33,202 nt of DNA from an uncultured Prevotellaceae bacterium (GTDB taxonomy: Bacteria > Bacteroidota > Bacteroidia > Bacteroidales > Bacteroidaceae): NCBI GenBank assembly GCA_902799905.1, contig CADCCB010000045.1, positions 1 through 33,202 of the forward strand, written 5' to 3'. Position numbers and translations under genes: made by a program. Below the pieces are notes generated by a model that was not told the DNA's origin, ran no database searches, and worked only from the letters and a program-made list of their open reading frames with translations. Below, piece by piece: positions 1-19,682 of this stretch; the first letter of the stretch is position 1, and every line of letters starts with the position of its first letter.

Positions 1-29
1 AAAACTGCAACTATTTGCTACTTTTTTCG

Positions 30-37
30 TACTTTTG
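30..37 (+). promoter_or_regulatory. Probable -7 element (TACTTTTG) for the GIY-YIG gene
   Basis: TACTTTTG fits the Bacteroidota -7 form TAnnTTTG and lies about 25 bases before the ATG at 62. A TTTG at 14-17 is too close to be a standard -33 element, so only the -7 box is supported. Transcription from here would probably continue into the restriction-modification gene. Confidence 0.45.
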
Positions 38-61
38 CGCAATAATCATTCTTGAGATGAT

Positions 62-709: not shown

Positions 710-718
710 TAATTTTAT

Positions 719-3700: not shown

Positions 3701-4630
3701 GAGAAGGTAACAGAATACAAAAAAGGTGATATCCTCATTTCTAACATAAGACCAAATTTGAAGAAAATTTGGCAGGCAGATGGAGATGGTGGATGCTCTA
3801 ACGATGTCCTTGTATTTAGAAATATAAGAAGAGACGATATTCATGATGAGTATCTTAATATCGTCCTTTCTTCTGATACTTTCTTTGACTACATGATGGT
3901 TGGGAAAACAGGTGTCAAAATGCCAAGAGGTGATAAAAAAACAATCCTAAAGTTTGAGATACCTTTAATTCCATATAGTATTCAATCTATTCTTATTAAA
4001 GATTACATTGAACAAGACAACATGTGTAAAGAGAAAGGTGCTCTAATTGATACTCTTAATAAGAAAATAGATGAGTGTTTCGAAAAATCTACCAATAAAG
4101 ACTACGTGGGTGAATTAATAGAATTGAGGTTGTCTGAAATATGTGACATGAAAGCTGGAAAATTTGTACCTGCTAATAGAATTGTGGATCAGCCAACCGA
4201 TATATATAAATATCCATGTTATGGTGGTAATGGCTTAAGAGGTTATACAGATACAATTACTAACGATGGTGATTATATCTTAATTGGACGCCAAGGTGCC
4301 CTTTGTGGGAATGTATGTATGGTTCATGGGCAGTTCCATGCAACAGAACACGCTGTTGTTGTATATCCTAATCATTTGGTAGATTCATTATGGTTTAAGT
4401 ATATGTTAGACAAGATGAACCTGAATCAATATTCTACTGGTCGCGCCCAGCCAGGATTGTCAGTTCAGAAGTTATTAGATATAAAGATTAGAATACCTAA
4501 AGAATTGAGTATTCAGGAAAGAACTGCAAAGCAATTGATACAGTATGAGAATAAAATACAAGCAGCAAAGGTGGAACTCTCTGAATGTAATGCTCGCAAA
4601 CAGGCTATTCTTGACAAATACTTAAAATAA
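719..4630 (+). CDS. Fused restriction-modification enzyme: nuclease, N6-adenine methylase and two specificity domains
   Basis: This 1303-residue protein combines three activities. A PD-(D/E)xK-like site is visible as Asp104 followed by Glu119-Cys-Lys121. The methylase has an AdoMet motif, ACGSGHF from residue 474, and the catalytic NPPY at 557-560, which indicates adenine N6 methylation. The C-terminal third carries two HsdS-like target-recognition units, roughly 940-1090 and 1128-1290, the second with the YPCYGGNG and GRQGALCGNV signatures. The layout fits a type IIG or BcgI-like single-chain system, or HsdM-HsdS with its own nuclease; no separate HsdR is seen. It lies between the GIY-YIG gene and a companion gene four bases downstream. 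The frame is intact. Recognition sequence unknown. Confidence 0.88.
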   Translation: MISNDNFTSILLLNEFGFTENRGVYSRHYGTDEKGFFLEYNSLSGEFNYPSGVIADRNTTHDSHQKESFVVFLCVAQLFNIGYLPHHLKLEGKNYSGTDKGYCDILVKNNDGDEYLIIECKTADITQKKDDEFRKHWAKTLRNGDQLFRYFNTYRKAKYLCLFAADYPEYTKDGHKEHKYENIYHIISLVDNEEYLRTDNKLRSFQQLRDEQGSSDDFFNVWKQTYKQDFNTRGLLEEGIEAFNIGNKSYSLDDLKTIDEYSLERKYNEFAIILRKHTISSHENAFDKLVNLFLSKIIDEKYNAKELTLLWKGAAYDDYFSLQDRLNILYRQGMKEFFGDEVTYVENQQIDDAFAFLTSKADEGKETIKRYFRQLKYFNNNPFAFLDVHNEDLFFQNAVILKDVISMLQGIYLTSNKDNQFLGDLFEGFLNKGVHQSEGQFFSPIPIVRFLVSSLPLRSLLEESSSIPRAIDYACGSGHFLTEYARQIQPIVTELKNSDIENYYKQIIGIEKDYRLSKVSQVAAFMYGMDGIHIHYSDALVDVPDVKDHTFKVLIANPPYAVSGFLETLSEEQRQRFTLSQYVSNTEKNNSIETFFIERAAQLLDTGGVATIILPSSILTKGGLYMRTRELLLKNFDIVSICCFGPNTFGQTNTSTVALFLRRKAIEPDVANHIQNRIDAWFAGNMDDDEFYNDASLLDDYVKRIGVSREDYVAMMQGQLTDTFLNAEIVQEYVNALNIHKQGKNSASTALATKAKEVRDNAQSFVKSKVFKQKTFEGQDEDIRRFTLQFIREIEKEKLYYFMLAATNPQPVLVMQSPEDKAKEKKFLGYEWSNRKGDEGIHYLNTGAEKKSSDDEEADDDTINQIKGVNGIITPLFNPLNLDDESKVNVLIRANFNLKEVEVGESADGIVELYSLIDLLDFSRVDFDKVIKTKAILAYPKLETKYPTERLGKIAPYVKTKVALTDIDASTYVTTDNMLQNRGGVLPFEGVPNIEKVTEYKKGDILISNIRPNLKKIWQADGDGGCSNDVLVFRNIRRDDIHDEYLNIVLSSDTFFDYMMVGKTGVKMPRGDKKTILKFEIPLIPYSIQSILIKDYIEQDNMCKEKGALIDTLNKKIDECFEKSTNKDYVGELIELRLSEICDMKAGKFVPANRIVDQPTDIYKYPCYGGNGLRGYTDTITNDGDYILIGRQGALCGNVCMVHGQFHATEHAVVVYPNHLVDSLWFKYMLDKMNLNQYSTGRAQPGLSVQKLLDIKIRIPKELSIQERTAKQLIQYENKIQAAKVELSECNARKQAILDKYLK

Positions 4631-4634
4631 GGAT

Positions 4635-5345
4635 ATGTGCGACATCAAAATATCAAAGACATCTGGCGCGGAGTTCATCTCACATCAACTCCTCAAATTT
4701 GTCGTCAATCCTAATCCTATGGCTGCATTGGTAAATGGCTTTTGTGACTATTTAAACATGCAGCAGGTCAATAACATTATTGATGTGTTGGGCGAGTTGA
4801 AAGATAAAATAGTTTTTGTTGAAGAGCAGATACATGGGAAGCTTTATGTAGACCCACCTGTATTCAAAGATGATATATTGCCGACATTGCAGAAGGCTAA
4901 AGATGAATTAAACGCAGAAAAACGTAAAATGTACGCCACGTACATAATGGCATGTATTCATCCTGATAGTTTAGGTTGCAGCAACAAGTCTATTTATATG
5001 AACTTACTTGATCAATTAGACTATCTGAGTATTTATATTCTTAAGCATTTAGGTTATTATACCACAGAAAAAAGGCTTGTGGAGACAATCGGACAAAGTT
5101 ATAATAAGGAAGTAATTCAGGTACACCTCTGGCAATTGCAACCTTGTGGACTTGTTGATAAAATAAGTGCTAAAGAATACGAAAGCTTAAATAAACGCGG
5201 CGGTAACAGGAGATTGTTGCATCCAGAAGGCGTTTTCTTGTATAAACGAACAGGTTTAGGCAATAGTTTCTTGAATTTCATTGTTAAGGGAATGCCAGAA
5301 GATAGTATAAAGATGGAATCAGAATATGTCAGGACAGACACCTGA
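4635..5345 (+). CDS. Unrecognised companion of the restriction-modification gene
   Basis: I do not recognise this 236-residue protein. It has no signal peptide or membrane segment and looks largely helical. The C-terminal third (about residues 130-200: helices, then QVHLWQLQPCGLVDKIS) reads like a winged-helix unit, which is a visual impression only. Its ATG lies four bases after the methylase stop with AAGG just upstream, so tight co-expression is very likely. By position it could be a controller, DNA-binding accessory subunit or inhibitor of the fused enzyme. A hairpin at 5362-5388 follows its stop. Confidence 0.65.
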   Translation: MCDIKISKTSGAEFISHQLLKFVVNPNPMAALVNGFCDYLNMQQVNNIIDVLGELKDKIVFVEEQIHGKLYVDPPVFKDDILPTLQKAKDELNAEKRKMYATYIMACIHPDSLGCSNKSIYMNLLDQLDYLSIYILKHLGYYTTEKRLVETIGQSYNKEVIQVHLWQLQPCGLVDKISAKEYESLNKRGGNRRLLHPEGVFLYKRTGLGNSFLNFIVKGMPEDSIKMESEYVRTDT

Positions 5346-5361
5346 CACAAATATAAAAATC

Positions 5362-5388
5362 ATGGTATGGTTCTTGTAACCATTCCAT
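5362..5388 (+). terminator. Hairpin after the restriction-modification operon
   Basis: ATGGTATGGTT at 5362-5372 pairs with AACCATTCCAT at 5378-5388 (10 of 11 positions) around a five-base loop. It starts 17 bases after the preceding stop codon. There is no clean T run after it, so it is a weak or imperfect intrinsic terminator. Confidence 0.45.
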
Positions 5389-5399
5389 AAATAAATGAT

Positions 5400-5407
5400 T
5401 AACTTTG
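5400..5407 (+). promoter_or_regulatory. Probable -7 element (TAACTTTG) of the DUF1016 locus
   Basis: TAACTTTG matches TAnnTTTG and lies 17 bases before an ATG at 5424. That ATG opens a short frame which only continues as the DUF1016 protein if the poly-A frameshift described at the next locus is corrected. This supports 5424 as the ancestral start. Confidence 0.4.
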
Positions 5408-5423
5408 CAAACAGAATGTGAAT

Positions 5424-6252
5424 ATGGATAAAAACATAGAAAAAAAGAGATAGCGGCAACCTCTTGCAACACAGAGAGGAGTTTGAAACGGTTTATGGCA
5501 TCATCTCTGCCCACAAGAAACGGGCAATGAATGCCATGCATAATGAATCGCTCAATATGCTTTGGGAGGTAGGGGCATACGTGTCTGACCGTTTGAAGAA
5601 GGCAGCCTGGGGTGACGGCGTTGTGCGTATGTTGGCAGAGTATATTCACACCAAGAGTCCCCAAGCAAAGGGTTGGAGTTATCGTACAATCTATAAGATG
5701 GTACAGTTCTATGAAACCTATTCGTCGCAGGGGTTCAACGAGATAGTTCATCATTATGGTATGCAACACTACCTGTCAAAATCTGATCAGCGAGAATCGT
5801 CAGATGAAAAGAAAGCAATTGTGCCAATCGAATTGGCACAAATAGGAAACGACGTAATTGTGCCAATCGAATTGACACAAATTCCGAACGTGCTGTTTGC
5901 TACTGGCTGGAGCAACCATCAGTTGATCATGAGCCGATGTAAAACGGACGAACAACGCCTTTTCTATATGCTGTATGCTGGCCGCGAACAATTGGAGTAT
6001 AAAGAACTACAGCGTGCCTTGAAAACAGATGCGATGTCTTCGATACTTGGCAGCAAGGATGTGCAGTCAGAAATGATGAAGCGCAATTATCCGCAAAGTG
6101 GCGTATTGTTCAAGGATACAGTCTATCTGGAAATGTTTGGCTTGCCTGTGAAATACAAGGAATCGAAGACAACGGGGACAGGTCGGCGTCTCGCTGTTGA
6201 TAAGAAGGGCAGAGCATCTTGGGCTGGATGTGGAGAACATTCAGGCGTATAA
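5424..6252 (+). pseudogene. DUF1016 (YhcG-type) gene, broken at both ends
   Basis: The body from 5464 matches the DUF1016/YhcG N-terminal domain, with YGIISAHKKRAMNAMHN and YEVGAYVS-like sequence, and the family hinge VYLEMFGLPVKYKESK near the end. The natural start appears to be the ATG at 5424, which gives MDKNIEKKR and then a stop at 5451. Skipping one base in the seven-A run at 5440-5446 joins it to the long frame, so a frameshift or length-variable A tract is likely. After about 6165 the family sequence stops, and the PD-(D/E)xK nuclease domain expected next is missing; the frame ends in unrelated residues at 6252. Family members are nucleases or accessory proteins near restriction systems. 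Probably dead, although a TTG start at 5464 would still give 262 residues. Confidence 0.7.
5819..5880 (+). repeat. Two copies of a palindromic unit inside the DUF1016 frame
   Basis: At 5819-5841, TTGTGCCAAT and ATTGGCACAA form a perfect 10-base inverted repeat around CGA. A near-identical copy with one changed base lies at 5858-5880. In frame they encode the repeated tract IVPIELAQI / IVPIELTQI. This looks like a small duplication of a hairpin-forming unit within a coding sequence. Confidence 0.8.
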
Positions 6253-8456: not shown

Positions 8457-10592
8457 ATGATTACACTCATCAAGAACTACAGGAATAAAGAGACGCTGCG
8501 CCTCGTGGAACAGAAAGAGGTGGCAGACATGATACGCAACGGCGAATATCAGGCTCAGGTGGAGGCGTTTCGCAGGGAACTGCCGCTGATGGAACATGCC
8601 CGCCGCCAAAGCGACGGCACGCTGACGGGCTATGTGGACTGGCCGAAGGGCCTGCCGCGCATTTGCTTCGCCTTGGAACAGGAGACGCGCAAGGGCAGCA
8701 GGACGACACGCGGCTACACTGGTCTGGTGCTGCTCGAGGTAAACAACTTGACGGGCTATGACGAGGCGGCAGCCGTCCGTCAGGGGGCTGCCGAGATGCC
8801 CCAGACGCTGATGGCTTTCATCGGCAGCGACGGCATGTCGGTGAAGATTGTCTGTCGTGGCGAACTGTTTCCAGCAGACGGCGTGCCAGCCCCTGCCTTG
8901 CCCCATACCACAGAAGACATCGCGCTGTTTCACGAGAACCTCTACGAACGGGCCCGCATGATCTATAATGGTCAGTTGGGAGTGACCATCGAGAAACTGG
9001 AGCCGCTGTCGCAGCGCATCTGCTATATGAGTTTCGACCCCTCCTTGGTCTATAACCCGCTGGCCACGCCCATCTATGCCAAGACGGAGAAGACAACCAG
9101 CGCGCTGAGCCGTCAGCCGTCGACGATGGAGCAGACCGACTACGAGCACTACCGTAACCTGCACACCATCTTCGAATTCAACCTGACGAAGGCCTGTGAC
9201 GAGACGGAGAACATCATCGATGACGACGAGCGGCACCATGCTGCGCTGATACTGCTGGCACGCTACTGCATGGAGACGGGACTGGCGATGGCTCCGGCCA
9301 TGCGTCTGGCCTTGTTGCATGCTGCCTTCTGGAACATGCCAGACCTGGTGAAGAAGGTCTTCGAAAATGCCTACCGCGAGGAGCACATGAAGAAATACAT
9401 GGAGCGGAAGGGCATCCAGCGCATGAAGTCCATACCGCCAGAGACCCTGCTGACGATGAAGATCAATATCTTCCTGAATGCCAACTACGAACTGCGCAAG
9501 AACGTGATGCGTGGCGTGGCAGAATATCGCATGAGGACAGGCATAGGCTTCTCGTTCCAGGATCTGACCGAGGAGGCCCGCAACTCCATCACCATGCGGG
9601 CTCTGGAACAGGGCATACGCTGCTGGGACAAGGACATACGGCGCTACGTCAACTCTGACGACATTGAGCACTATGACCCACTGAACGACTACCTGGAGCA
9701 CCTGCCGCGATGGGACGAACAGGACCGCGTGACACCTCTGGCCGCCAGGGTGCCTACGGAATGGGCCGAGTGGACACACCTCTTCCACATCTGGATGCGC
9801 TCGATGGTGGCCATGTGGCTGGGAAAAGGTCAACTCACGGGCAATGCTCTCGTACCTCTTTTAATAGGACGACAGGGCTGCGGCAAGTCCAGTTTCTGCC
9901 GCATCCTGCTGCCTCGCGACCTGCTGGACTACTACAACGACCGCATATCGTTCAAGAACGAACAAGACCTGAACCTCGGCCTCACCTCGTTCGCCCTCAT
10001 CAACCTCGACGAGTTCGACAAGATCACCCAGCGGCAGCAGGTCGTTCTGAAATACCTCGTATCGACGGCCGACCTGAAATACCGTCCGCCATACGGCAAA
10101 GCCTACACCATGAACCGCCGCTACGCCTCGTTCATCGGCACGACCAACGAGCAGACACCCCTGACAGACCCCAGCGGGAGCCGCCGCTTCCTCTGCGTGA
10201 GCATCAACGGCGACATCGACTTCGAGACGCCCATCGACCACGCCCAACTCTATGCCCAACTGCTTAGCGAGATACGCAGCGGCGAGCGCTACTGGCTGAC
10301 AAAGGAAGAGGAGCGCGCCCTCATGGAGCACAACCTGACGTACCAGCGGCTGAACGGCCTGGGCGAGATGCTGATGAGCGTGATACAGAAACCACGCAAC
10401 GGCGAGGAGGGTCTCTGGGTGGGTCTGAATGATCTGTCGGCCCTGCTCAAGAAGCACTTCAAGGGCTATAAGGAAGATGCCTCCACGTTCCAGAAGATCG
10501 GTAACTACCTGAACCGTCCTGAATACAAGTTCGACAGCAAGCATTCAATGGGCGGCACCCTCTATAGGGTCAGGATGAAAGTAGAACCATAA
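8457..10592 (+). CDS. VirE_N (BT4734-like)/VapE-domain primase-helicase-like protein
   Basis: This 711-residue protein has two parts. The N-terminal part (about 40-200) resembles the VirE_N/BT4734-like domain, with GYTGLVLLEVNNL at 86-98 and an IGSDGMSVKIV segment. The C-terminal part (about 380-620) is a VapE-type P-loop ATPase with GRQGCGKSS at 471-479 (Lys477), INLDEFDK with Asp518-Glu519, and a GTTNE plus SRRFLCV sensor region. Related proteins serve phage, satellite or element replication, and orphan copies are common in Bacteroidota chromosomes. Where some relatives have acidic residues in the first strand, this one reads Glu94-Val-Asn96, so primase chemistry is doubtful. No integrase or partner gene is adjacent. 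Its codon use is GC-richer than the restriction block. Confidence 0.85.
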   Translation: MITLIKNYRNKETLRLVEQKEVADMIRNGEYQAQVEAFRRELPLMEHARRQSDGTLTGYVDWPKGLPRICFALEQETRKGSRTTRGYTGLVLLEVNNLTGYDEAAAVRQGAAEMPQTLMAFIGSDGMSVKIVCRGELFPADGVPAPALPHTTEDIALFHENLYERARMIYNGQLGVTIEKLEPLSQRICYMSFDPSLVYNPLATPIYAKTEKTTSALSRQPSTMEQTDYEHYRNLHTIFEFNLTKACDETENIIDDDERHHAALILLARYCMETGLAMAPAMRLALLHAAFWNMPDLVKKVFENAYREEHMKKYMERKGIQRMKSIPPETLLTMKINIFLNANYELRKNVMRGVAEYRMRTGIGFSFQDLTEEARNSITMRALEQGIRCWDKDIRRYVNSDDIEHYDPLNDYLEHLPRWDEQDRVTPLAARVPTEWAEWTHLFHIWMRSMVAMWLGKGQLTGNALVPLLIGRQGCGKSSFCRILLPRDLLDYYNDRISFKNEQDLNLGLTSFALINLDEFDKITQRQQVVLKYLVSTADLKYRPPYGKAYTMNRRYASFIGTTNEQTPLTDPSGSRRFLCVSINGDIDFETPIDHAQLYAQLLSEIRSGERYWLTKEEERALMEHNLTYQRLNGLGEMLMSVIQKPRNGEEGLWVGLNDLSALLKKHFKGYKEDASTFQKIGNYLNRPEYKFDSKHSMGGTLYRVRMKVEP

Positions 10593-10678
10593 ATGAAGCG
10601 GTCGAGCGAAAGTACTATAGAGTTCTTTTATGGGGTGAAGCCAAATAATCTTGGAAAAACCTAAATACCGCAAAAATA

Positions 10679-10710
10679 TTTGTTGGGACGAGGACGTTTG
10701 TCTATCTTTG
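10679..10710 (+). promoter_or_regulatory. Promoter of the small secreted protein gene
   Basis: TTTG at 10679-10682, a 20-base spacer and TATCTTTG at 10703-10710 make a near-consensus promoter. Transcription should begin close to the ATG at 10716, so the message would be almost leaderless or would start translation at the second ATG, 10740. Confidence 0.65.
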
Positions 10711-10715
10711 CAGCG

Positions 10716-11222
10716 ATGATAGCAAAACGTACATACTTGATGCTGGCAGCGCTTCTCTGCTGTATGGCTTCTTCTGCACAGAAGCGGCTGATTGTCATCG
10801 ATTGGGATACACGGATTCCCGTCGATGGTGCTAATGTCGTAGGCAAAGGTCTGACGGTACAGACTGATTCCATGGGTGTTATTGCCGTACCAGACAGTTG
10901 TCGCAGCCTGCTGTTCTCCCATGTCAACTACGAGAGCCGCCTTGTCAACATTGAGGAGGTGAGAGACACGGTGTACCTCTTGTCAAAACTGCTGACCCTG
11001 AAAGAGGTGGTGGTGGTAGGACAGGCTCCTTTCAAGGATGACGATCGGGAACTGAACAAGCGTTTGAGGCTCCCGCAGAAAGAACTAGAACTGGCTGCCG
11101 CCAATCCTGCCGGTGGTGTCAATATCTTACCCCTCATCAAGTATCTCATTCCGAAGAAATGGAGGAAAAACTCAAAGAAGGAGCGGCGTGAACAGTTGAA
11201 ACGCGCCATTGAAGAGTACTAA
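10716..11222 (+). CDS. Secreted protein with carboxypeptidase-regulatory-like domain
   Basis: From the ATG at 10716 the product has 168 residues. It starts with a Sec signal peptide (MIAKRTYLMLAALLCCMASSAQ), followed by a short beta-rich domain of the CarboxypepD_reg-like type: RIPVDGANV, then DSMGVIAVPDSC, then VNYESRLVNI. This fold is common at the N-terminus of TonB-dependent receptors and in free-standing envelope proteins of Bacteroidota; here no barrel follows. The C-terminus is rich in Lys, Arg and Glu. An upstream start at 10680 would include the promoter and is rejected. It has its own promoter and no obvious partner. A periplasmic or surface role is likely; the exact function is unknown. 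Confidence 0.75.
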   Translation: MIAKRTYLMLAALLCCMASSAQKRLIVIDWDTRIPVDGANVVGKGLTVQTDSMGVIAVPDSCRSLLFSHVNYESRLVNIEEVRDTVYLLSKLLTLKEVVVVGQAPFKDDDRELNKRLRLPQKELELAAANPAGGVNILPLIKYLIPKKWRKNSKKERREQLKRAIEEY

Positions 11223-11229
11223 TTATTTA

Positions 11230-11348
11230 TTGCTGTCCGTTCAACGGGTCGCGCGTGTGTGCGCATGTATAAATAGATGTAATGTTCTGCATATTAGTCG
11301 ATGGAGAACAAAAACATCTATGTATAGTCGCTTCTTATCGGACAGCAA
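11230..11348. ncRNA. Nested-stem element: candidate structured RNA or MITE
   Basis: A 10-base perfect outer stem (TTGCTGTCCG at 11230-11239 with CGGACAGCAA at 11339-11348) encloses two inner hairpins. One is GCGC-GTGTGT-GCGC at 11251-11264. The other is longer: 11269-11280 with 11314-11325 (11 of 12), then TGTTCTGCAT at 11283-11292 with ATGGAGAACA at 11301-11310 (9 of 10), around an eight-base loop. The result is a three-way-junction shape. It lies between the secreted-protein stop and the promoter of the five-gene cluster. The ends could equally be terminal inverted repeats of a miniature transposable element, although I see no clear target duplication. Confidence 0.4.
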
Positions 11349-11404
11349 AAGTTAAAAATAATTGTTTTTTTCATTTCTATGTTTATTGTTTCGAGAATTA
11401 GTAC

Positions 11405-11412
11405 TATTTTTG
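11405..11412 (+). promoter_or_regulatory. Probable -7 element (TATTTTTG) of the five-gene cluster
   Basis: TATTTTTG fits TAnnTTTG and lies 27 bases before the ATG at 11439. A TTG at 11386-11388 is the nearest -33 candidate, with a short 16-base spacer, so strength is uncertain. No other good promoter is seen within the cluster until its terminators. Confidence 0.5.
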
Positions 11413-11438
11413 CAACAAACTTAAAACAATTATTATTA

Positions 11439-13214
11439 ATGATCCGATCTGTAGGTATTGATTTCGGCACCAGTACTACTGTTGTCAAAGTTCAGAACGA
11501 CAGCAAGAATAATATGTGCCCTGTAGAAAGCCTGACTTTCAATGGACATCCCACTGTGCCCACTCTAGTCTTCCTGCGTCCTTCAGAGACCGAGCCAGGC
11601 AAGACGAACTATTATTTCGGCTACGAGGCTGAAGCCATGTGCAACAATGGTATCAAAGGCGAAATGAAGCGTTCGTTCAAGATGAATCTCGTGAGCAATA
11701 ACGAGCAGGAACAGGAGGAAGCACGCTATCTGACCAAGAAATTCTTCGAATATCTTCATGAGACCTATGCCCACCAGTCGGCTACCTTTGGCCGCTTCGA
11801 CCAGGAAACCATTTACGTGAGTTATCCAGCCAAATGGCCGTCAGAGGTGAGGCTCTTTATGAAACAGTGCGCCATAGAGGCAGGATTCGGTACTAACGAT
11901 ACCGTTATCGGTGTTGATGAGCCAACAGCCGCCGTGCTGGCTAGTTTGAGCGAGAACCTGTCAGAGTTGCAGGCTAAGAAGGTGCTGCAACCTGATGTGC
12001 CGGCCAATGTGATGATGGTAGACATGGGAGCGGGTACCACAGATATTGCCATCTTCAAGATGAAAGTGTCAGCAACGGCCGACGACAAGCGCCCCAGCAT
12101 ATATGATGTTGTGACCTATCCTGTGATTACTTGCGACTATTTCTGTGGCGGACGCGAGATTGACGCTATTCTCGATGACTGGGTGCGCAACTATATCGCC
12201 TCTATACGTCAGCCACCTAAATTGTCGAAGGGTAGGGAGAAAAAAATCCACGACACTATCAGCCAGTGGAAAGACACCATCGTCTCGCCGCAACTCGCTG
12301 CTGAGGAAACTATCTGCACCCACCCTGTACTGGCTGGCTACAAGGAGGAACTGATTGAGGAAGGCTTCGAACTAAATTCCAATGTGGATCCCTTCAGACT
12401 GGGACGTGCGGAATTCGAGAGTCTGACCCGCAGTCATTGGGAGGCTTGGCGCAACCTTTTGCAGGGTGCATTGGCTGAGGCCCAGCGCTGCGGCTATTCC
12501 GGCGAAGCGTCAGACATTGACTTTGTCATCCTGGCCGGTGGTCATAGTCAGTGGTATGGCGTGAAGGATTTCCTGCTGGGAAAATCTTTTGCGGGATTGC
12601 CATCGTTGGGATTCACGAAGATAGAGACCGAACCCGTCCGCCTGCTGCAGTCGCAAAGGGCTCATGAGACTGTTGCTAAGGGACTATGCCTTTACGACTC
12701 GGAGTTCGATATCAAGCAGGTAACGGCTAACAATGTGTGGATTCGTTTCATGATGGGTACCATCGTCACCGACTGGCAGAAGGCCATAGATAAGAATGTC
12801 ACACTGCCATACAATGCCGACCAACTGACCTTCAAGATTTCCACCAGGAGCAATTCATTTATTAAGCGTAAGGCAGTAACAATCGTTTGCGAGACTTGTC
12901 AGGGCGAAAGCCTTGCCGACGGTCGTCTGCACAGCACAGAAATCAACTTCCCAGCCGAGAGCGACATAGAACATCTTATCTTCAACGTCATTTTGGGTGG
13001 TCTACTTTCTCCTCTTGCAATCCTAGATGTCCTTTTCCATTTGGATGATGTTATGGCGGGCAAGGGCGCAGAGGTGGTAAAAAATGCTTTTGCAGAAGAC
13101 CGCGTTTTCCATTTGAAGCCCGTTATCAAAGCGGGCACCGATGGCATTATCCGTGTTAGCGGTGAGATAACGTGTAGTACAACTTCCATCAAATTAAAAG
13201 AACATCAAATCTAG
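11439..13214 (+). CDS. Hsp70/actin-fold ATPase (cluster gene 1)
   Basis: From the ATG at 11439 the protein has 591 residues. Phosphate-1 is GIDFGTSTT at 6-14, phosphate-2 is VDMGAGTTD around Asp195-Asp202, and the adenosine motif is LAGGHSQ at 365-371, so it is an Hsp70-superfamily ATPase. The region after about residue 430 does not look like the DnaK substrate-binding domain and carries a hydrophobic patch (ILGGLLSPLAILDVLF, about 525-540). A start at 11379 would precede the -7 box and is rejected. No DnaJ or GrpE lies nearby. It ends seven bases before the large ATPase gene, which implies a shared job. I infer a chaperone-like or assembly-controlling ATPase for this cluster, not general protein folding. 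Confidence 0.85.
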   Translation: MIRSVGIDFGTSTTVVKVQNDSKNNMCPVESLTFNGHPTVPTLVFLRPSETEPGKTNYYFGYEAEAMCNNGIKGEMKRSFKMNLVSNNEQEQEEARYLTKKFFEYLHETYAHQSATFGRFDQETIYVSYPAKWPSEVRLFMKQCAIEAGFGTNDTVIGVDEPTAAVLASLSENLSELQAKKVLQPDVPANVMMVDMGAGTTDIAIFKMKVSATADDKRPSIYDVVTYPVITCDYFCGGREIDAILDDWVRNYIASIRQPPKLSKGREKKIHDTISQWKDTIVSPQLAAEETICTHPVLAGYKEELIEEGFELNSNVDPFRLGRAEFESLTRSHWEAWRNLLQGALAEAQRCGYSGEASDIDFVILAGGHSQWYGVKDFLLGKSFAGLPSLGFTKIETEPVRLLQSQRAHETVAKGLCLYDSEFDIKQVTANNVWIRFMMGTIVTDWQKAIDKNVTLPYNADQLTFKISTRSNSFIKRKAVTIVCETCQGESLADGRLHSTEINFPAESDIEHLIFNVILGGLLSPLAILDVLFHLDDVMAGKGAEVVKNAFAEDRVFHLKPVIKAGTDGIIRVSGEITCSTTSIKLKEHQI

Positions 13215-13221
13215 GGAGAAT

Positions 13222-15813
13222 ATGGGTAAATTCATCAGCGATCTGCTTGGCAGATTCAACGAACAGAAGAAACTGAAGGAACTGGAAGGAAAGATGGAGC
13301 ATTTTACCTTCCCCACCGACTTGACAAATCCGCTTATTGATTATATGCTGGAGCGGTCGTATCTGAACGACATGGCTGAACGTGATGCCTTTGTCGTGGA
13401 GCAGGATGCCCATCGGGAGCCCATAGGTTGGATACGTATCAACCGCCTGCCCGTGAAGCCCGGCATGGATGAGGACTACGACTTGCTCACCCGCTGGCAG
13501 TCGGTCATCTCATCGGTACATATTTGGCAGAGCCGTCTCTATTTCCTCTTGCAGCGTGAGAACGGACAGACCCGCCTCTATTTGGGCTTGCAGGGCAGTA
13601 ATAAGAAAGAGGTGGCAGCCCGAATGAGAAGTGCACTTACCAACAGTATGCGCGGTATTGACCTGGAAAATCTCGATATGGACATGGCCGATGACCTGAC
13701 CAGTAGTCTCAGTCAATACAATTGCATGGGAGCCGTGACGGGCATCCCCTCTTTCAGAAAGGAAACAGAATACAAGGAATTGCAGACCCTGGATCAACTG
13801 GCCTTTGGACTGACCGATGTGAACGGCGATGACGTGAACTTTTCCCTTCTGGTGATTGCCGACCCACTGTCCGACGACGATGTGCAGGACATTATCCGTC
13901 GCTACCAGAAATTGGGTTCTGACATCCATACTGAGGTACATGCCAGCATCCAAGAAAGCAAGAGCATGGGAACCTCTCGGCAGAATAACATAAGCATGGG
14001 TGCCATTTTAGGTATGTTTGCCAATATGATTCCTGCTTTAGGTCCTATTGCAGCCACCTTATATTATGGGCAGTTCGGACAAAACAACAGTAAAAATGTA
14101 GGGGTTTCTGAGAGCGTCACCAGAGATTTCCTGAACAAATTTGCTGAATACACGGAGAAACAGACCGATATGCATTGCGAACGCCTGAGACACGGACGCA
14201 ATCTGGGTTTCTGGAATGTGGGAACCTATGTGCTGGGTCAGATGGACCGCGATGTCACCACAGCCTTGGGCATTCTGCGCTCAGTATATTCGGGTGACAT
14301 TTCGTTTCTGGAACCCATCCGCATCCACATGCTGAAGGGTGGTACCAGTGCGCTGACCACTGTGCGTGACCAATTTTCGCTCATCCCGCTCATCACCCCT
14401 GAAGCCCAGAAGAAGGAGAAGGATGAGTGGCACATTTTGGGTAAGCCCTACCAGTATCTCTCCACCCCGCTTAACACCGAAGAATTATCGCTCATCACCT
14501 CGCTGCCACGAAAGGATGTACCTGGACTTCGCTTTGTGAAGACCTCAGTACGCTTTGCCAACAATCCGGGCGAATTGTCGCAAAATGACACCCTTGAACT
14601 GGGACACATCGTGGATACTGGCATTGTGCAGAAGAAAAACTCCTACAAGATAGATATCAACGCCCTGGTGCGTCATGCTCTAGTGGTGGGCAGTACTGGA
14701 TGCGGTAAGACCACCACCTGTAAGACCATGATTAATACTGTGCTCGACCGCCAGATACCCATGCTCATCATCGAGCCTGCCAAGGACGAGTATGTGCGAT
14801 GGGCCATCAAACAGCGGCAGGCCGGACGTAAGGTCAACATCTTCATGCCTGGCGTGAAGACGCTAGAGGGCGAGCGCATCCAGCAACTCAAACTGAATCC
14901 CTTCCAGCCAGCGGCCATTGAGGGGGCACCTATCGATATGATGACCCGCTGCGAGCAACTCACGGCCCTTGTCAACGCTAGTCTGCCCACAAGTGACGTG
15001 CTGCCCGTCATCATTGACGAGTCGTTTTTCAACTACCTGCTGACCCAGCCCTTCGGCGAAGACTTCCTGCAGGGTGAGATGAACCAGTTGGACGACTATC
15101 CAAAACTCGACGGTGTACTGCCCATTGCCCGTAAGATGCTCAAAGCACGCGGCTACAGTGAGGAGATTGCCAATGGTCTGGTTGCAGCACTGGAGACGCG
15201 CTTCGCTTATCTGACAAGAGGCAAGCGTGGCGAGATTCTTAATGTGAGGCATTCAACCCCGTGGCACCAACTTTTCAACGAGACCACTGTCATCAACCTT
15301 TCAAAGATTGCCAATGCCAAAGACCGCGCTCTCATCATGTCTATTATCTTGTTGGCCCTCTATGAATACCGTATCTCGGCCTATCTCTACGATAGCGACT
15401 ACCAGCGGCGAGCACAAGAGAATAAACTGCTGCACCTCACCGTGGTGGAAGAGGCGCACAATGTGCTCATGCGCCCCAGTGTCGATCAGAGTGGATCGGG
15501 CAATCCTCAGCAGGTGGTGGCCGACCTATTTGGCAATATGCTTTCCGAAATTCGAGCCTATGGACAGGGACTGATGGTCATCGACCAGGTGCCTACCCGG
15601 CTGATTCCCGATGTGTTGAAGAACACGACTATCAAAATCTGTCACCGGTTGGCTGCTGCCGAGGATGCTCAGGTTATGGCCGATGCTCTGGCTTTGCGCC
15701 CCGACCAGAAGGACATCATCCCCACGCTGGCTCAAGGCCACGCTATTATCGCCTCCGACCGCGATGATGCTGCCTCGTGGGTGAAGGTCAACAAACCTAA
15801 AATTCTGTTGTAA
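13222..15813 (+). CDS. HerA/DUF87-type ATPase with unusual N-terminal half (cluster gene 2)
   Basis: This 863-residue protein has a RecA/HerA-like motor in its C-terminal half: P loop GSTGCGKTT at 490-498 (Lys496), then the conserved IIEPAKDEY strand, Walker B LTVVEEAHN with Glu743-Glu744, and a late VIDQVPTRL sensor and helix. Such motors (HerA, VirB4, TraG, FtsK relatives) form hexamers that move DNA or protein. The N-terminal 450 residues match no domain I recognise and hold a Gly/Ala/Ile-rich segment (about 258-285, AILGMFANMIPALGPIAATL) that may contact membrane. It has no nuclease, Sir2 or HerA-partner domain. It lies seven bases after the Hsp70-like gene and 18 before a membrane-protein gene. 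A membrane-linked translocation motor is a reasonable inference. Confidence 0.85.
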   Translation: MGKFISDLLGRFNEQKKLKELEGKMEHFTFPTDLTNPLIDYMLERSYLNDMAERDAFVVEQDAHREPIGWIRINRLPVKPGMDEDYDLLTRWQSVISSVHIWQSRLYFLLQRENGQTRLYLGLQGSNKKEVAARMRSALTNSMRGIDLENLDMDMADDLTSSLSQYNCMGAVTGIPSFRKETEYKELQTLDQLAFGLTDVNGDDVNFSLLVIADPLSDDDVQDIIRRYQKLGSDIHTEVHASIQESKSMGTSRQNNISMGAILGMFANMIPALGPIAATLYYGQFGQNNSKNVGVSESVTRDFLNKFAEYTEKQTDMHCERLRHGRNLGFWNVGTYVLGQMDRDVTTALGILRSVYSGDISFLEPIRIHMLKGGTSALTTVRDQFSLIPLITPEAQKKEKDEWHILGKPYQYLSTPLNTEELSLITSLPRKDVPGLRFVKTSVRFANNPGELSQNDTLELGHIVDTGIVQKKNSYKIDINALVRHALVVGSTGCGKTTTCKTMINTVLDRQIPMLIIEPAKDEYVRWAIKQRQAGRKVNIFMPGVKTLEGERIQQLKLNPFQPAAIEGAPIDMMTRCEQLTALVNASLPTSDVLPVIIDESFFNYLLTQPFGEDFLQGEMNQLDDYPKLDGVLPIARKMLKARGYSEEIANGLVAALETRFAYLTRGKRGEILNVRHSTPWHQLFNETTVINLSKIANAKDRALIMSIILLALYEYRISAYLYDSDYQRRAQENKLLHLTVVEEAHNVLMRPSVDQSGSGNPQQVVADLFGNMLSEIRAYGQGLMVIDQVPTRLIPDVLKNTTIKICHRLAAAEDAQVMADALALRPDQKDIIPTLAQGHAIIASDRDDAASWVKVNKPKILL

Positions 15814-15831
15814 ACAATAACGCTAACGATA

Positions 15832-16464
15832 ATGACACTCACAACATCTGTTATACAGTTTATCTGGTTTATCATTCCGCTGGCAGGCATCTTTATTATC
15901 TGTGCCATATTGCTCGTCTTCCTGCTGATGCGCAAGATGTCGGCAAGTGACAAACAACCCCAGAAGGTGGTTTCCAACAAGCAGCCTCAGAGCGTGGAAC
16001 CTAAGCCCGCTCCTGACTCCCAGTTCTTGCCTCCTGCTCCTGTAGTGGACGAAGCCAAGAGTAAGATTGAAGACTTTGCTGGGTGCTTCGAGCCGCTGCA
16101 TCGTGCAGCCATGCGGGGTACTGCAGACAGCAGTCGCCTCATTCTGCAGGAAGTGGGCAACCGCATCCGCCATTTCAATGGCTGCGAACAACTTAAGGAT
16201 TGGATGACAGCCCTAACTGGCGACAATGCCCAGTGGGACGAGCCAACGGCACGCGCCAGGGTGAACGCCTTTATGCAACTGCTGGCCAAGGCCGGACTGC
16301 AGAAAGATACGCGTCAGACCGTCACTGTTGATGCTGATACCCCTATGTGCTACTATCATGATGACCTTGACGAGATGCCCGTCGGTGAGACATACCGGGT
16401 GAAGTCGCCCTGCTGGACATTTAACGGCAAAGTGCTGGAGAAAGGTATACTGAGAGATAACTGA
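15832..16464 (+). CDS. Single-pass membrane protein (cluster gene 3)
   Basis: This 210-residue protein has one strong transmembrane helix at about residues 8-32 (FIIPLAGIFIICAILLVFLL) followed by positive residues (MRKM), so the bulk should face the cytoplasm. A Pro/Gln/Ser-rich linker (about 38-66) leads to a soluble domain of about 140 residues that I cannot assign, containing FEPLHRAAMRG and CEQLKDWMTAL. It starts 18 bases after the ATPase stop. The natural guess is a membrane anchor or docking subunit for the HerA-like motor or the Hsp70-like ATPase. No catalytic motif is visible. Confidence 0.75.
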   Translation: MTLTTSVIQFIWFIIPLAGIFIICAILLVFLLMRKMSASDKQPQKVVSNKQPQSVEPKPAPDSQFLPPAPVVDEAKSKIEDFAGCFEPLHRAAMRGTADSSRLILQEVGNRIRHFNGCEQLKDWMTALTGDNAQWDEPTARARVNAFMQLLAKAGLQKDTRQTVTVDADTPMCYYHDDLDEMPVGETYRVKSPCWTFNGKVLEKGILRDN

Positions 16465-16505
16465 AATAACTATTTTATTTATTAACATCTTAAAACTATC
16501 AGTCA

Positions 16506-17273
16506 ATGGGAAAAATACCATCAATCGACGAAACACCGAAACTGAGTGAGTTCGTACCATCAAGCAGCGATGTGAAAAGTGACGTGGTGACGCGAGGCGA
16601 CGTACTGCCCGACGTAACTGACGACGGTTTCAGTATTACTAAAGCCATTAGTGATTTTATTGACGGCTTTAAAGAGGGCTTCATGGAAGTGTTCGACAAC
16701 ATTGCCAAGTTTTTCGGATTTGGTGATGACACTCCCGACACTCCCACAGTTCAGGATACCCGTGAGTACGGTCTACAGGAATGTTCCGATGCCGCCAAGG
16801 AGATTTTTACGCCCGAAGTGCTTAGCCGCTGGGGCCTAATGGATCTTCAGGAGCGCCAGGACAAACTGACTGAGTATGCCGAACGTGTTGCCGATGTGCT
16901 AGGTGTCAACATCAACGTCGTCTTCCAACAGGGCTTGCTCGATCAGGGTGCATGGGGCTATAATGACGGTCAGGGCAACGTGGTGCTCGATGCTTCGTTT
17001 GTCTATGATCCCGCACAGGTGCTTGAAGCCATCAGCACCATTGCCCACGAGACCCGCCACCAGTTCCAGCATGATGTCTGCGAGCATCCTGAAAACTACG
17101 ACATCGACCCCTACACCGTTGCTGAATGGCAGGCTGGCTACAAAAACTACACCCAGCAGATGCAGACTGCTGAAGACCCATGGGGCTATTTCTTCAATCC
17201 TCTGGAAATCGATGCCCGCTACTTTGGCGAATCGGTGGTGCGTGAACTCACTCGTTCCTTCATCAATGAGTAA
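16506..17273 (+). CDS. HExxH metallopeptidase-like protein (cluster gene 4)
   Basis: This 255-residue protein has no signal peptide. Residues 1-40 are polar and probably disordered; 43-72 form an amphipathic stretch (FIDGFKEGFMEVFDNIAKFF). The C-terminal domain carries AHETRHQFQHD with HETRH at 181-185, and a downstream NPLEIDAR with Glu234, which would give an HExxH...E zinc site of the gluzincin kind. Domains with an AHExRHxxQ core are known to me at the ends of secreted and polymorphic-toxin-like proteins, so this could be a cargo or effector of the cluster. The opposite view, a processing protease within the machine, is also possible. The gene lies 41 bases after gene 3. Confidence 0.75.
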   Translation: MGKIPSIDETPKLSEFVPSSSDVKSDVVTRGDVLPDVTDDGFSITKAISDFIDGFKEGFMEVFDNIAKFFGFGDDTPDTPTVQDTREYGLQECSDAAKEIFTPEVLSRWGLMDLQERQDKLTEYAERVADVLGVNINVVFQQGLLDQGAWGYNDGQGNVVLDASFVYDPAQVLEAISTIAHETRHQFQHDVCEHPENYDIDPYTVAEWQAGYKNYTQQMQTAEDPWGYFFNPLEIDARYFGESVVRELTRSFINE

Positions 17274-17339
17274 TAAAAACGGAAAGGTTTTTAAGAAGAC
17301 AACTTAAATAACTAATACATCTTTCAATAATTAACAGTT

Positions 17340-17654
17340 ATGATTACCTATACAGACAAAGAGATAGAAGCACGCCTCTATGAGGCCGACTATTCCCACA
17401 ATCCAGCCGTTATCAGTAGTGTAACCCGTCAGTTGCGCCAACTGGGCCCTGAGGCCGAGCAGGCCTTTGAAGCATGGTGGACGACGGGCAAGACCCCCAC
17501 GTTCGACATTGAAGGCATTACTCCCGCCTACTGCCGCAAGATGCACAGCATGACTGACGTAGCCCTCATCCTGACCTACGACCAGTTGCTTAAGCATCCC
17601 AAGCAGGCAGCCTACTTCCTCAAGAAGCCAATCTTGAGACAAGGCAAACCATGA
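17340..17654 (+). CDS. Small unrecognised protein (cluster gene 5)
   Basis: This 104-residue soluble, helical-looking protein has no family I recognise. Visible features are an acidic N-terminus, a central EQAFEAWW motif, a CRKMHSMTD segment and a basic end. It follows the peptidase-like gene by 66 bases and is the last gene before two terminators, so it belongs to the cluster transcript. By position it might be an inhibitor, adaptor or immunity partner of the HExxH protein; nothing in the sequence proves this. Codon use matches the genes before it, and its frame is fully open. Confidence 0.65.
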   Translation: MITYTDKEIEARLYEADYSHNPAVISSVTRQLRQLGPEAEQAFEAWWTTGKTPTFDIEGITPAYCRKMHSMTDVALILTYDQLLKHPKQAAYFLKKPILRQGKP

Positions 17655-17674
17655 GAAAAACCCATATTCTGTGA

Positions 17675-17700
17675 CTCGCCGTGGAAGCGGCGAGTTTTTT
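17675..17700 (+). terminator. Intrinsic terminator of the five-gene cluster
   Basis: CTCGCCG at 17675-17681 and CGGCGAG at 17688-17694 form a perfect seven-pair GC-rich stem with a six-base loop, followed directly by six T. It starts 20 bases after the last stop codon of the cluster. Confidence 0.9.
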
Positions 17701-17710
17701 GGTGTCGTAT

Positions 17711-17745
17711 AAAAAAAGGGTGAGGAGGAGCACACCCTTTTTTTT
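17711..17745. terminator. Bidirectional terminator between convergent units
   Basis: AAAAAAAGGGTG at 17711-17722 faces CACCC plus eight T at 17733-17745. The stem with A and T runs on both sides can stop transcription both from the five-gene cluster and from the minus-strand DUF2207 operon, whose last stop codon lies at 17757. Confidence 0.8.
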
Positions 17746-17756
17746 GTTTATGCAGT

Positions 17757-19682
17757 TTACCAACTGCCGCCACCGCCGCCTCCGCCGCCACCGCCGGAGA
17801 AGCCGCCACCACCGCTGCTGTGGGAACTGCTGTCGTGGCTGATGGTATGGATGGATTGGGTGACTGATGAGTTGATGCTATGCGTCAGGTGGTGGGTCAG
17901 GGCATAGCCCGTCAGCGGTGTGGTGGAATCGTACCAGTCGGGCTTCTCCACTTGGATATTCTGGAACTGCTTGGCCCATTTGTCGCTGAGGCCGAAGACC
18001 ATAGCATAGGGCAGGATGGCGTAGTAGTAGTTGGGATCGTCGTGCTGCAGATGCTCCAGGCGTGATTTCTCAGCCGTCTCGATGAACTCCTTGAAGCCCA
18101 GCAGGCGCCCCATCATCTCGATGCGATAAGGCGTGTTGATGGTGAACCGGCCAGCCAGTTCGCCCAAGATGAAACTGATGATGAAGAGGGCGGCGATCTG
18201 ACCGAAGCCCATCAATGCGCCGTAGGCATCAGTCACGAAATAGTAACCTAGACAGACGACAATCATGCAGAGGGCTTTGCCGATGATGACCAGCGTGCGT
18301 ACCCAGGTCTTACCTATCAGATCGCGTACGCTCAGAGCCATGCGGCCGAGGAATCCGAATGAGAACGTCAGGCCATAGGCGAAGAAAGCCAGCAAGATGG
18401 CTTCAGCATCGAAGGTCTTTTCAACCGAGTTGGTGCCTAGGGTGAGCGTGCCGAAGATGATGAGCAGGAAATAGAGGCAGACGGGCAGGGGCTTGGTGGT
18501 GGTCAGTTGACGATCGCCCTTGAAATAGTTCTTCAGCGACTGGGTGATGTCCATGATGGCCTTGGGCTGTTCGCCGATGTCGCTCATCCGCACCATGTCG
18601 CCCTTTTTGAAGAGCATGTTCATCATCTTTCGCTGGTAGCCGGGAGCCGATGGCGGCAGGTTCTTGCGCTTGGTGAGCATGAGTTCGGTCTTGCCCATCA
18701 GTTTGCTGACCAGACCGTTCTTCTTCACCTCCTGGATGGAGAGGTAGCCCTGTCCGGCCAGCCAGGGGATGAGTGATGCCAGGTCGATGAGATCGGCGGA
18801 ATCGTCGATGATGGTGCCTACCTCGGCACTGCTGATGCCATTGGGAGGATAGAACTCGATGCTCTTGGTGACATGGTCGCGTCTGAGCGTGATATGACAG
18901 ACGATGATGGCGATGATGAGCAGGATGGTGATGGCGAGGAAGAGGTAGTGCCAGAAGGGGTTGACGGTCAGCACATCCTCGTAGTAGCCTTCGGGCAGCA
19001 TGGCATAGAGGGTCACGCCGTGGTTGGGTGCCACATTGGCGGCCTCACCTGTAATCCGCGTGGGCGTGGCATTAACCTCCAGGAAATCGATGACATTCGA
19101 CTCGTTGCCGAATGTACCGCTGTAGACCTTCAGACGGTCGGCGATATCATCGGGCAGGGGCTTCTCGAAAGTGATGTCGAACGAGAAATGGTCGATGGAT
19201 TCGTTGAAATCGGTCCCCAGAATGGTATGGAACAGATAGTCGTAGGCCGGCATTCGGTCATCGCGGTAGGTATAGGTATAGTGGATGACGTATGTCTTGT
19301 CGCCCGTCACCTCGCGGTCGGCATCACCCATGCGGATGACCAGGTTGCCGTTGTCTGTTTCCGTCTCGTAAGGAGCACCCTCGACCTTCAGGTCGGAGAT
19401 GTCGCTCTGGTAGTCGAAACGCTCAATGCACGACTCATTACCCTCGATGTCGCGCAGGTCGTGGTTCAGCCAAAACGACTTGGGGATGTAGCGGTAGATG
19501 CCGTGGCGCGGCTGGTCGAACACCACGTCGAGTTGTTCGGTGACATGCCACTCATTGTTCTTTTTTACCTCAGCCGTGACATTGATGTTACGGTAGTGGA
19601 AGCCTCCACGGTCGGCTCCTGCCGTCAGACAGGCCAGCAGGAGCACTGTCAGTAATGCGTATTTCTTCAGTTCGTGGTTCAT
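17757..19682 (-). CDS. DUF2207 membrane protein
   Basis: This 641-residue protein has a signal peptide (1-22), then the DUF2207 extracytoplasmic beta domain (about 25-230, with HVTEQLDVVF and HGIYRYIP), a transmembrane helix (about 245-268), a cytoplasmic part and two to four more hydrophobic segments (about 405-520). It ends in a Gly tail with one aromatic residue: SSGGGGFSGG and then a run of about ten glycines before SW. This is the usual layout of the family, whose function is unknown. It is the last gene of a PorT-like/LemA/DUF2207 unit, 21 bases after LemA; DUF2207 and LemA are neighbours in many bacteria and probably act together in the envelope. Confidence 0.9.
   Translation of the reverse strand: MNHELKKYALLTVLLLACLTAGADRGGFHYRNINVTAEVKKNNEWHVTEQLDVVFDQPRHGIYRYIPKSFWLNHDLRDIEGNESCIERFDYQSDISDLKVEGAPYETETDNGNLVIRMGDADREVTGDKTYVIHYTYTYRDDRMPAYDYLFHTILGTDFNESIDHFSFDITFEKPLPDDIADRLKVYSGTFGNESNVIDFLEVNATPTRITGEAANVAPNHGVTLYAMLPEGYYEDVLTVNPFWHYLFLAITILLIIAIIVCHITLRRDHVTKSIEFYPPNGISSAEVGTIIDDSADLIDLASLIPWLAGQGYLSIQEVKKNGLVSKLMGKTELMLTKRKNLPPSAPGYQRKMMNMLFKKGDMVRMSDIGEQPKAIMDITQSLKNYFKGDRQLTTTKPLPVCLYFLLIIFGTLTLGTNSVEKTFDAEAILLAFFAYGLTFSFGFLGRMALSVRDLIGKTWVRTLVIIGKALCMIVVCLGYYFVTDAYGALMGFGQIAALFIISFILGELAGRFTINTPYRIEMMGRLLGFKEFIETAEKSRLEHLQHDDPNYYYAILPYAMVFGLSDKWAKQFQNIQVEKPDWYDSTTPLTGYALTHHLTHSINSSVTQSIHTISHDSSSHSSGGGGFSGGGGGGGGGGSW

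Follow-up and report, generated by a model that had tools for sequence, protein, structure and literature searches.

What is the function of five adjacent genes that combine an Hsp70-like ATPase, a HerA-family motor, a membrane protein, a putative peptidase and a small protein? The question is raised by positions 11439..17654 (+ strand) of contig CADCCB010000045.1 (assembly GCA_902799905.1) of an uncultured Prevotellaceae bacterium, of which the whole stretch of 33,202 nucleotides analysed here is called the window. We favour, at a probability of about one in two, the reading that the cluster is a member of an apparently unnamed modular toxin-deployment system, in which polymorphic toxins are combined with a HerA-Hsp70/dynamin machine and the cargo is probably exported against a competitor. 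The five genes, described in the earlier note on this DNA as lying on the same strand with gaps of 7, 18, 41 and 66 bases, agree with the list of open reading frames (ORFs) and are as follows:

11439..13214 (or from 11379), + strand: gene 1, Hsp70-like ATPase of 591 amino acids (PF00012, family profile against DnaK, invariant residues)
13222..15813, + strand: gene 2, HerA-family ATPase of 863 amino acids, predicted hexameric motor (DUF87, Walker motifs, hydropathy)
15832..16464, + strand: gene 3, single-pass membrane protein of 210 amino acids, predicted anchor or adaptor (hydropathy)
16506..17273, + strand: gene 4, occupant of the cargo or effector slot, HExxH putative zinc metallopeptidase of 255 amino acids (conserved motif)
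17340..17654, + strand: gene 5, small partner of 104 amino acids, predicted immunity protein or adaptor for the peptidase (small-gene profile)

We examined the conservation of this set in relatives of the HerA gene. After annotation of 111 loci and removal of 12 duplicates at 95% HerA identity, 99 were counted, by a six-frame scan up to 5 kb behind HerA; the ORF caller had missed small genes, the window's own included. The named loci (L numbers) are the best 80 of at least 552 HerA relatives and come from Bacteroidota, Cyanobacteriota, Chloroflexota, Bacillota, Pseudomonadota and others; they and ten loci from a viral-contig collection are pattern-limited samples and not a census. HerA relatives were also found in two of 50,697 phage records. 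An Hsp70-profile gene lay upstream of HerA in 42 of the 99 non-redundant loci, the window's HExxH family was found downstream in 27 of these 42, and the small gene in 23 of those 27. The genes thus stay together across relatives, and homologues scattered amid unrelated neighbours were seen in none of the Hsp70-type loci examined.

The small gene was missing in L031, where the contig ends in the peptidase, and in L040, L041 and L085. The remaining 15 Hsp70-type loci carried another peptidase family (L043, L051, L052, L054, L062 and L135), a protein of unknown family in Chloroflexota (L053, L055, L066, L087 and L090) or an LHH nuclease (L059); L075 gave no profile match and a DUF3754 protein follows there, and L039 and L042 offered little or no sequence. 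In the sister clade, an extra probable membrane protein of about 300 residues is encoded upstream, and a protein of about 78 residues follows the small gene in 19 loci, and once also in the dynamin-type locus L117. L040, L041 and L085, the three loci that lack the small gene along with L031, form a HerA-Hsp70 subtype with MORN-repeat and radical-SAM-like genes, named by eye (L085:13313-14643, L041:7679-8758 and L040:7184-8293). L085 additionally encodes a small peptide, rich in Cys and with a CMxGCGSNY motif that recurs, which suggests a modified product similar to ribosomally synthesized and post-translationally modified peptides (RiPP-like).

The cargo slot behaves differently from the machine. 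In the HerA tree (a quick, midpoint-rooted tree), L059 and L037 form a sister pair with a support of 99; identity between the two is 81% for HerA, along its whole length, and 63% for Hsp70, whereas their cargo-slot genes gave no BLAST match at E<=1. The cargo of L037 is a peptidase followed by the small gene, that of L059 an LHH nuclease (PF14411, E 4e-27) for which the small gene was not found. We then took seven peptidase cargos from other loci, built a profile from their first 95 residues and searched it against the 1815 proteins of these loci: at E<=1 only cargo proteins were retrieved, among them the LHH cargos of L146 (E 4.4e-21), located at a contig edge, and of L059 (E 3.2e-20). The sister clade hence shows the pattern typical of polymorphic toxins, one N-terminal module with different C-terminal toxin domains. 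In genomes of the same family, the module was detected in 10 of 399 at E<=0.01; five matches were strong, namely four peptidase cargos already known and the LHH cargo of L146, and five were weak (E 5.6e-4 to 0.0075). In genomes of the order, 1 of 393 matched at E<=1e-4, again by a peptidase cargo. Two of the weak matches, L147 and L150, were set aside as unrelated housekeeping genes by eye.

Other loci exchange or combine cargo in different ways. In L060, a sister-system locus of Bacteroides finegoldii DSM 17565 whose Hsp70 gene seems to be split in the assembly, a single polypeptide joins the peptidase to a WHH/colicin-DNase-like nuclease, for which Pfam scores stay under cut-off. L032 and L037 have an additional gene for a WHH nuclease of 150 residues downstream. 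Within the window's own clade (five rows, support 100), L051 keeps the Hsp70, HerA (50%) and the membrane protein (25%) and has as cargo two genes of another peptidase family, a member of which bears a C-terminal WHH nuclease in L047. Machine and cargo have separate evolutionary histories, and the cargo is exchangeable; this goes beyond the earlier note, as does the partner-like behaviour of the small gene towards the cargo.

Dynamin-like genes replace the Hsp70 gene upstream of HerA in 10 of the 99 loci. Nine of the ten fall into one group of 14 rows in the tree (support 100) and the tenth, L071, lies among the Hsp70-type rows. L043, whose partner is an Hsp70, branches at the base of the 14-row group, so the motor's partner has changed at least once. 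Known toxin families occupy the cargo slot in these relatives: a WHH, LHH or AHH nuclease, confirmed by Pfam or by record annotation, lies behind HerA in seven of the ten. Immunity-type genes were found in five, three of them SUKH and two of an unnamed family called immunity by place only; SUKH-type genes follow the toxin in L045, L134, L153 and L154. Plasmids of E. coli, Lactococcus and Treponema show the order dynamin, dynamin, one or two hypothetical genes, HerA, HNH nuclease and SMI1/KNR4 (in Lactococcus, a hypothetical gene in the last place). Exiguobacterium has HerA, HNH and SMI1/KNR4, with no annotated dynamin, and the plasmid (dynamin-type) version was present in one of 5,426 E. coli genomes.

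The dynamin-type locus L179 connects these cargos with that of the window. Starting with a dynamin-like gene and HerA, it continues with a WHH-type toxin and an immunity-like gene, after which come a peptidase belonging to the window's family (E 2e-22) and a 98-residue partner, which compares with the small gene at an hhalign probability of 78% and beats 2000 shuffles. In this arrangement, peptidase and small gene occupy the place of a second toxin-immunity pair. Behind a distant HerA, L175:9447-13801 carries small genes with similar N-termini, one of them with an HNH-like end (by eye), then a SUKH-profile gene, a possible toxin cassette array. Cyanobacterial plasmid versions were observed in L135:10623-13603 and L136:10619-12667, and near both lies a gene with the annotation DUF692 multinuclear iron-containing protein. 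In L135, the HExxH cargo has at its end a Cys-rich tail, which might be a modification substrate.

Because a constant machine whose exchangeable cargo shares its N-terminal part and combines known toxin folds with immunity genes is the pattern of polymorphic toxin systems, as set out in parts of PMC3482391, gene 4 would be the toxin, gene 5 its immunity protein and HerA the motor. In the scheme that we prefer, the HerA ATPase would be tethered to the inner membrane by gene 3, and the Hsp70-like ATPase would prepare or hand over the cargo, a role taken by dynamin-like GTPases in another branch. Gene 4 would be the cargo, a probable zinc metallopeptidase toxin whose slot holds other peptidases or HNH-type nucleases in relatives, and gene 5 presumably protects the producer. 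The motor would most likely thread the cargo across or into the envelope to act on a competing cell, export to a rival being the inferred and preferred direction of transport. The logic of two ATPases, an anchor, a cargo and a small partner, proposed in the earlier note, survives the comparison, and the cargo slot of relatives can hold known toxin domains. More tentatively, and with less confidence than for the cluster itself, HerA ring motors with interchangeable Hsp70 or dynamin partners may form a new class of effector-delivery machine that moves polymorphic toxins (peptidases and HNH nucleases) through the envelope and that occurs in genomes of Bacteroidota as well as on plasmids from Pseudomonadota, Bacillota and Spirochaetota.

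Several observations weigh against this reading. Gene 4 stays below cut-off for every Pfam family and matches neither PADLOC nor NCBIfam models, its toxin class being unrecognised, and gene 5 matches no known family over cut-off in Pfam, PADLOC or NCBIfam, immunity families included. The peptidase, retained in the 27 Hsp70-branch loci out of 42, is more constant than usual for toxins, and a second pair of peptidase and small gene in L030 indicates that the pair also exists outside the HerA slot. L059 is without a recognised immunity gene and its N-terminal module matches peptidase cargos elsewhere, not that of its nearest relative L037; as the module was not found in the window's own genome, the proof by domain swapping holds for the sister clade. 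The match between the L179 partner and the small gene is weak, and the custom profiles (peptidase, small gene, WHH, LHH, AHH, SUKH and others) were partly built from the rows that they count. No outer-membrane or injection component was recognised by Pfam in the cluster, and similar machines occur in both Gram-negative and Gram-positive hosts. Finally, the flanks of such clusters name more defence families than controls do.

This last point leads to the main rival, an intracellular anti-phage role of the abortive infection type, in which HerA with Hsp70 or dynamin would sense infection at the membrane and unleash the peptidase or nuclease, the small gene coding for an antitoxin. We consider it possible, though rather unlikely. 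We compared 90 of 151 flank proteins from 24 Hsp70-type loci (the L032 WHH cassette being left out) with 90 of 144 control proteins, the latter taken in list order from distant parts of contigs mostly carrying the system and thus not random. At E<=1e-30, the flanks gave 11 PADLOC family names from 15 models and the controls three names from 12 models, nearly all AbiE; this is a weak comparison, in that the tally counts families rather than matched proteins. WYL regulators precede the dynamin-type operon in Lactococcus and Treponema, gene 2 itself matches the PADLOC HerA and mad8 models (mad8-like similarity of 62.7 bits), and distant HerA relatives lie in surroundings similar to those of CoCoNuT systems as presented in parts of PMC11090510, such as L141 with DUF2357 and Csm6. 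The window also encodes a type IIG enzyme, a T5orf172 protein and a DUF1016 protein. The neighbouring restriction system, taken in the earlier note as fitting such a role, is a weak argument: positions 1-6000 of the window have a guanine-cytosine (GC) content of 38%, against 49-52% for the cluster. The cargo families themselves speak for the deployment of toxins between bacteria, since colicin-DNase/WHH, LHH and AHH domains together with SUKH are inter-bacterial toxin hallmarks, a role that passages of PMC3482391 do not settle. Domain swapping behind a single N-terminal module is likewise a polymorphic-toxin pattern, and PADLOC models matched none of genes 3, 4 and 5 at E<=0.1 and gene 1 weakly.

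The properties of the motor bear on a second alternative. Gene 2 was read in the earlier note as a HerA-type motor of 863 residues, an assignment that is well founded: it matches DUF87 (Pfam, E 4e-10, 40.6 bits, cut-off 23.2), and in an alignment of 17 rows the Walker A stretch G490..K496 and E743-E744-A745-H746 are invariant. An N-terminal domain, a weakly hydrophobic stretch (residues 262-280, by hydropathy) and the motor domain follow each other. The gene is single in its own genome, no paralogue being found. The best NCBIfam model is the DNA-translocating CedD, at 93 bits and thus under its cut-off of 600, and the curated model of repair HerA is far under its cut-off. HerA might thus be imagined to pump DNA, like TdtA of Thermus, in a DNA-transfer or plasmid-maintenance machine whose toxins act on recipients or plasmid-free cells. 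According to parts of PMC5365140, the HerA-family TdtA expels DNA in concert with a NurA-like nuclease and a type IIG enzyme; moreover, 41 of 72,556 plasmid records contain a HerA relative, 12 of the 41 being typed as mobilizable and six as conjugative. We nevertheless regard DNA transfer as very improbable: a scan of the five proteins and of ten neighbours showed no relaxase, pilus or integrase family, and a peptidase cargo has no obvious place in it.

Gene 1, in the earlier note an Hsp70/actin-fold ATPase, was borne out as such by a Pfam HSP70 match (PF00012, 23.3 bits, cut-off 20.6) and by the 24-row family profile, which aligns with DnaK nucleotide-binding domains over profile positions 14-385 (E 3e-47). 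In this alignment D8, G10, K81, E161, G197, D202, G367 and G368 are invariant and D195 nearly so; by eye, we take D8, K81, E161, D195 and D202 to correspond to the catalytic D8, K70, E171, D194 and D201 of DnaK. Judged from its sequence, the protein carries a complete, genuine Hsp70 nucleotide-binding domain, and it does not reach a DnaK-level match in NCBIfam (24.6 bits, cut-off 648). A start at 11439 agrees with the beginning conserved among these Hsp70 proteins, where D8 of the IDFG motif is invariant; an alternative in-frame ATG lies upstream at 11379. In the sister clade, the C-terminal part of the Hsp70 protein of L033:6200-8266 matches the LeoBC dynamin model (PADLOC, E 2e-10), a hint that an Hsp70 domain may sit on a membrane stalk of dynamin-like type. 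A comparison by hhalign of 19 such C-termini with 13 dynamins of related loci gave a probability of 1.6%, and the dynamin-like tail was left as a lead.

Gene 3 possesses one strong hydrophobic segment, N-terminal (residues 2-40), which agrees with the single-pass membrane protein announced in the earlier note. Among L029-L048, homologues were found only in L029 and L030, and one more in L051. Its likeness to the sister-clade protein of about 300 residues is weak and C-terminal (hhalign probability 39%). A GrpE-like C-terminus suspected by eye in that sister-clade protein was dropped, GrpE being absent from six solved-structure profile matches; nor was GrpE among the Pfam families shown (19 for the first member, 25 of 52 in the tally) for nine members.

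For gene 4, H181-E182-xx-H185 together with E234 and D236 is invariant in 21 of 21 aligned sequences, in keeping with the zinc-peptidase-like protein of the earlier note; no paralogue of the HExxH gene was found in its own genome. Gene 5 was recovered in the six-frame scan by the small-gene profile (E 2e-35; the profile includes this row). Near these two genes stands a third alternative, a protein quality-control or envelope-stress module, in which a membrane-bound Hsp70 and a HerA-like unfoldase would feed the HExxH protease with gene 5 as adaptor. An Hsp70 and a protease form a classic pairing, peptidase and small gene are kept together (the 23 of 27 loci), and the small-protein profile touches BAG-domain exchange factors of Hsp70, not significantly (E 0.17). 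The second pair, in L030 (14294-17410), a close relative of the window cluster, consists of a HExxH protein with a membrane-like N-terminus and a small-gene homologue; it lies upstream of the Hsp70 gene and beside an AAA ATPase-like gene (by eye), which would suit such a module. Against it, the closely related machine of L059 has a nuclease instead of the peptidase, and the occurrence is patchy: at E<=1e-10 a search with the single protein found HerA relatives in 22 of 301 genomes of the same family, and at E<=1e-20 a profile search found them in 4 of 395 genomes of the phylum, the window's own included in both. A quality-control role is therefore improbable in our estimate, hardly less so than DNA transfer.

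Type VII secretion systems have an FtsK/HerA-superfamily ATPase linked to polymorphic toxins. Our cluster has one HerA-type motor, not the multi-ATPase of the EssC/EccC type, and no WXG100/LXG family was matched by Pfam in its five proteins. The likeness extends to published descriptions, where passages of PMC3482391 tie FtsK/HerA-type ATPases to toxin export by type VII and type IV secretion systems. As in the polymorphic toxin systems presented there, relatives of the cluster combine a shared N-terminal module with exchangeable C-terminal LHH, WHH/colicin-DNase or AHH domains, and some have SUKH-type immunity genes; in contrast to them, the window's toxin domain and immunity family are unrecognised by Pfam. 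No known trafficking domain (PAAR, WXG, CDI and the like) was among the Pfam matches of the five proteins, and the words 'dynamin' and 'hsp70' do not occur in the larger part of the text of PMC3482391.

The nearest printed mention found is the third extension of Type III-A CoCoNuT in PMC11090510, part of which reports for this variant an EccE3-HerA/VirB4-like ATPase and a small helical protein and considers mobilisation or secretion. It shares with the cluster an FtsK/HerA-superfamily ATPase with a variable insertion, a small helical protein and, in the wider system, Hsp70-like domains. L141 (DUF2357, HerA, Csm6), in a distant part of the HerA tree, resembles it. Unlike CoCoNuT, the five genes and ten neighbours have no CnuB/McrB GTPase, CnuC or vWA among their Pfam matches, and section 10 of that source describes no polymorphic toxin with immunity beside the ATPase; the two are set apart by description, not by sequence.

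The cluster also resembles the DUF4297-HerA defence complex, where, according to parts of PMC11291478, a HerA hexamer is joined to a nuclease effector encoded next door, a precedent that favours an anti-phage role; it differs from this complex and its kin by the extra Hsp70, membrane and small genes. DUF4297, Sir2 and NurA gave no Pfam match among the five proteins, and the NCBIfam antiphage HerA models scored 40.2 and 21.5 bits with gene 2 (cut-offs 800 and 850). The absence of a match to HerA-Sir2, HerA-DUF4297 or Hma, stated in the earlier note, is consistent with these results, the partner domains being absent in Pfam and the cut-offs not reached in NCBIfam. PADLOC and NCBIfam returned nothing for the five proteins apart from generic HerA/mad8 matches and weak ones below cut-off; for MADS, no mad match besides the mad8-like HerA was obtained at E<=0.1 (PADLOC). 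Bacterial dynamins of the LeoABC type are linked to toxin release in parts of PMC4159319, and Dynamin_N had no Pfam match among the five proteins. Among the matches listed in the open-licence PMC literature, none described an Hsp70-HerA-toxin gene set.

A third type of HerA locus, mostly proteobacterial, was observed in L088, L089, L094, L100, L104, L110, L122 and L138. It has the order HerA, a protein of about 220 residues (with a hydrophobic Gly/Ser-rich front where read), two genes and a protein of about 860-990 residues. The Hsp70 profile matches the large protein of L138 and a 1013-residue protein of L106, and Pfam matched nothing in the L110 protein.

Two regulatory claims of the earlier note fared less well. 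The promoter-like match at 11409-11436 is one of nine in the region, where shuffles give 7.7 +/- 2.6; as this is the chance level, the match is no evidence for the upstream promoter candidate. Terminator-like matches numbered eight (shuffles 6.0 +/- 2.7). Of the two strong terminators claimed at the end of the cluster, one convincing hairpin stands behind gene 5 and the second was not seen in the scan:

17673..17696, + strand: intrinsic terminator-like hairpin closing the operon, with 10 base pairs, 6 of them G-C, and a T-rich tail (a pattern match, not evidence of function)

Positions 10001-18000 of the window, cluster included, share their GC content with most of the remaining window, and because this content differs from that of positions 1-6000, cluster and restriction module need not share arrival or history. 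The stretch of 38% GC contains, at 62-5345, the T5orf172 protein (PADLOC candidate PDC-S57), the type IIG restriction-methylation enzyme of 1303 amino acids and an unassigned gene of 236 amino acids, and looks like a separately acquired defence module. Directly upstream of the cluster, 8457-10592 encodes a BT4734-like N-terminal plus VapE-like protein, of a kind frequent on mobile elements. A neighbouring DUF2207 gene was matched in 2 of 60 genomes of the same genus, its own included, too few for an empty-site comparison.

If the cargo is exported, the cluster would represent an unrecognised toxin-delivery route, with relatives of its machine in Bacteroidota, Cyanobacteriota, Chloroflexota, Spirochaetota, Bacillota and Pseudomonadota. 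If it acts intracellularly, it would link polymorphic toxins with phage defence. In both cases, the idea that one motor can exchange Hsp70 for dynamin as its partner is now open to direct tests.

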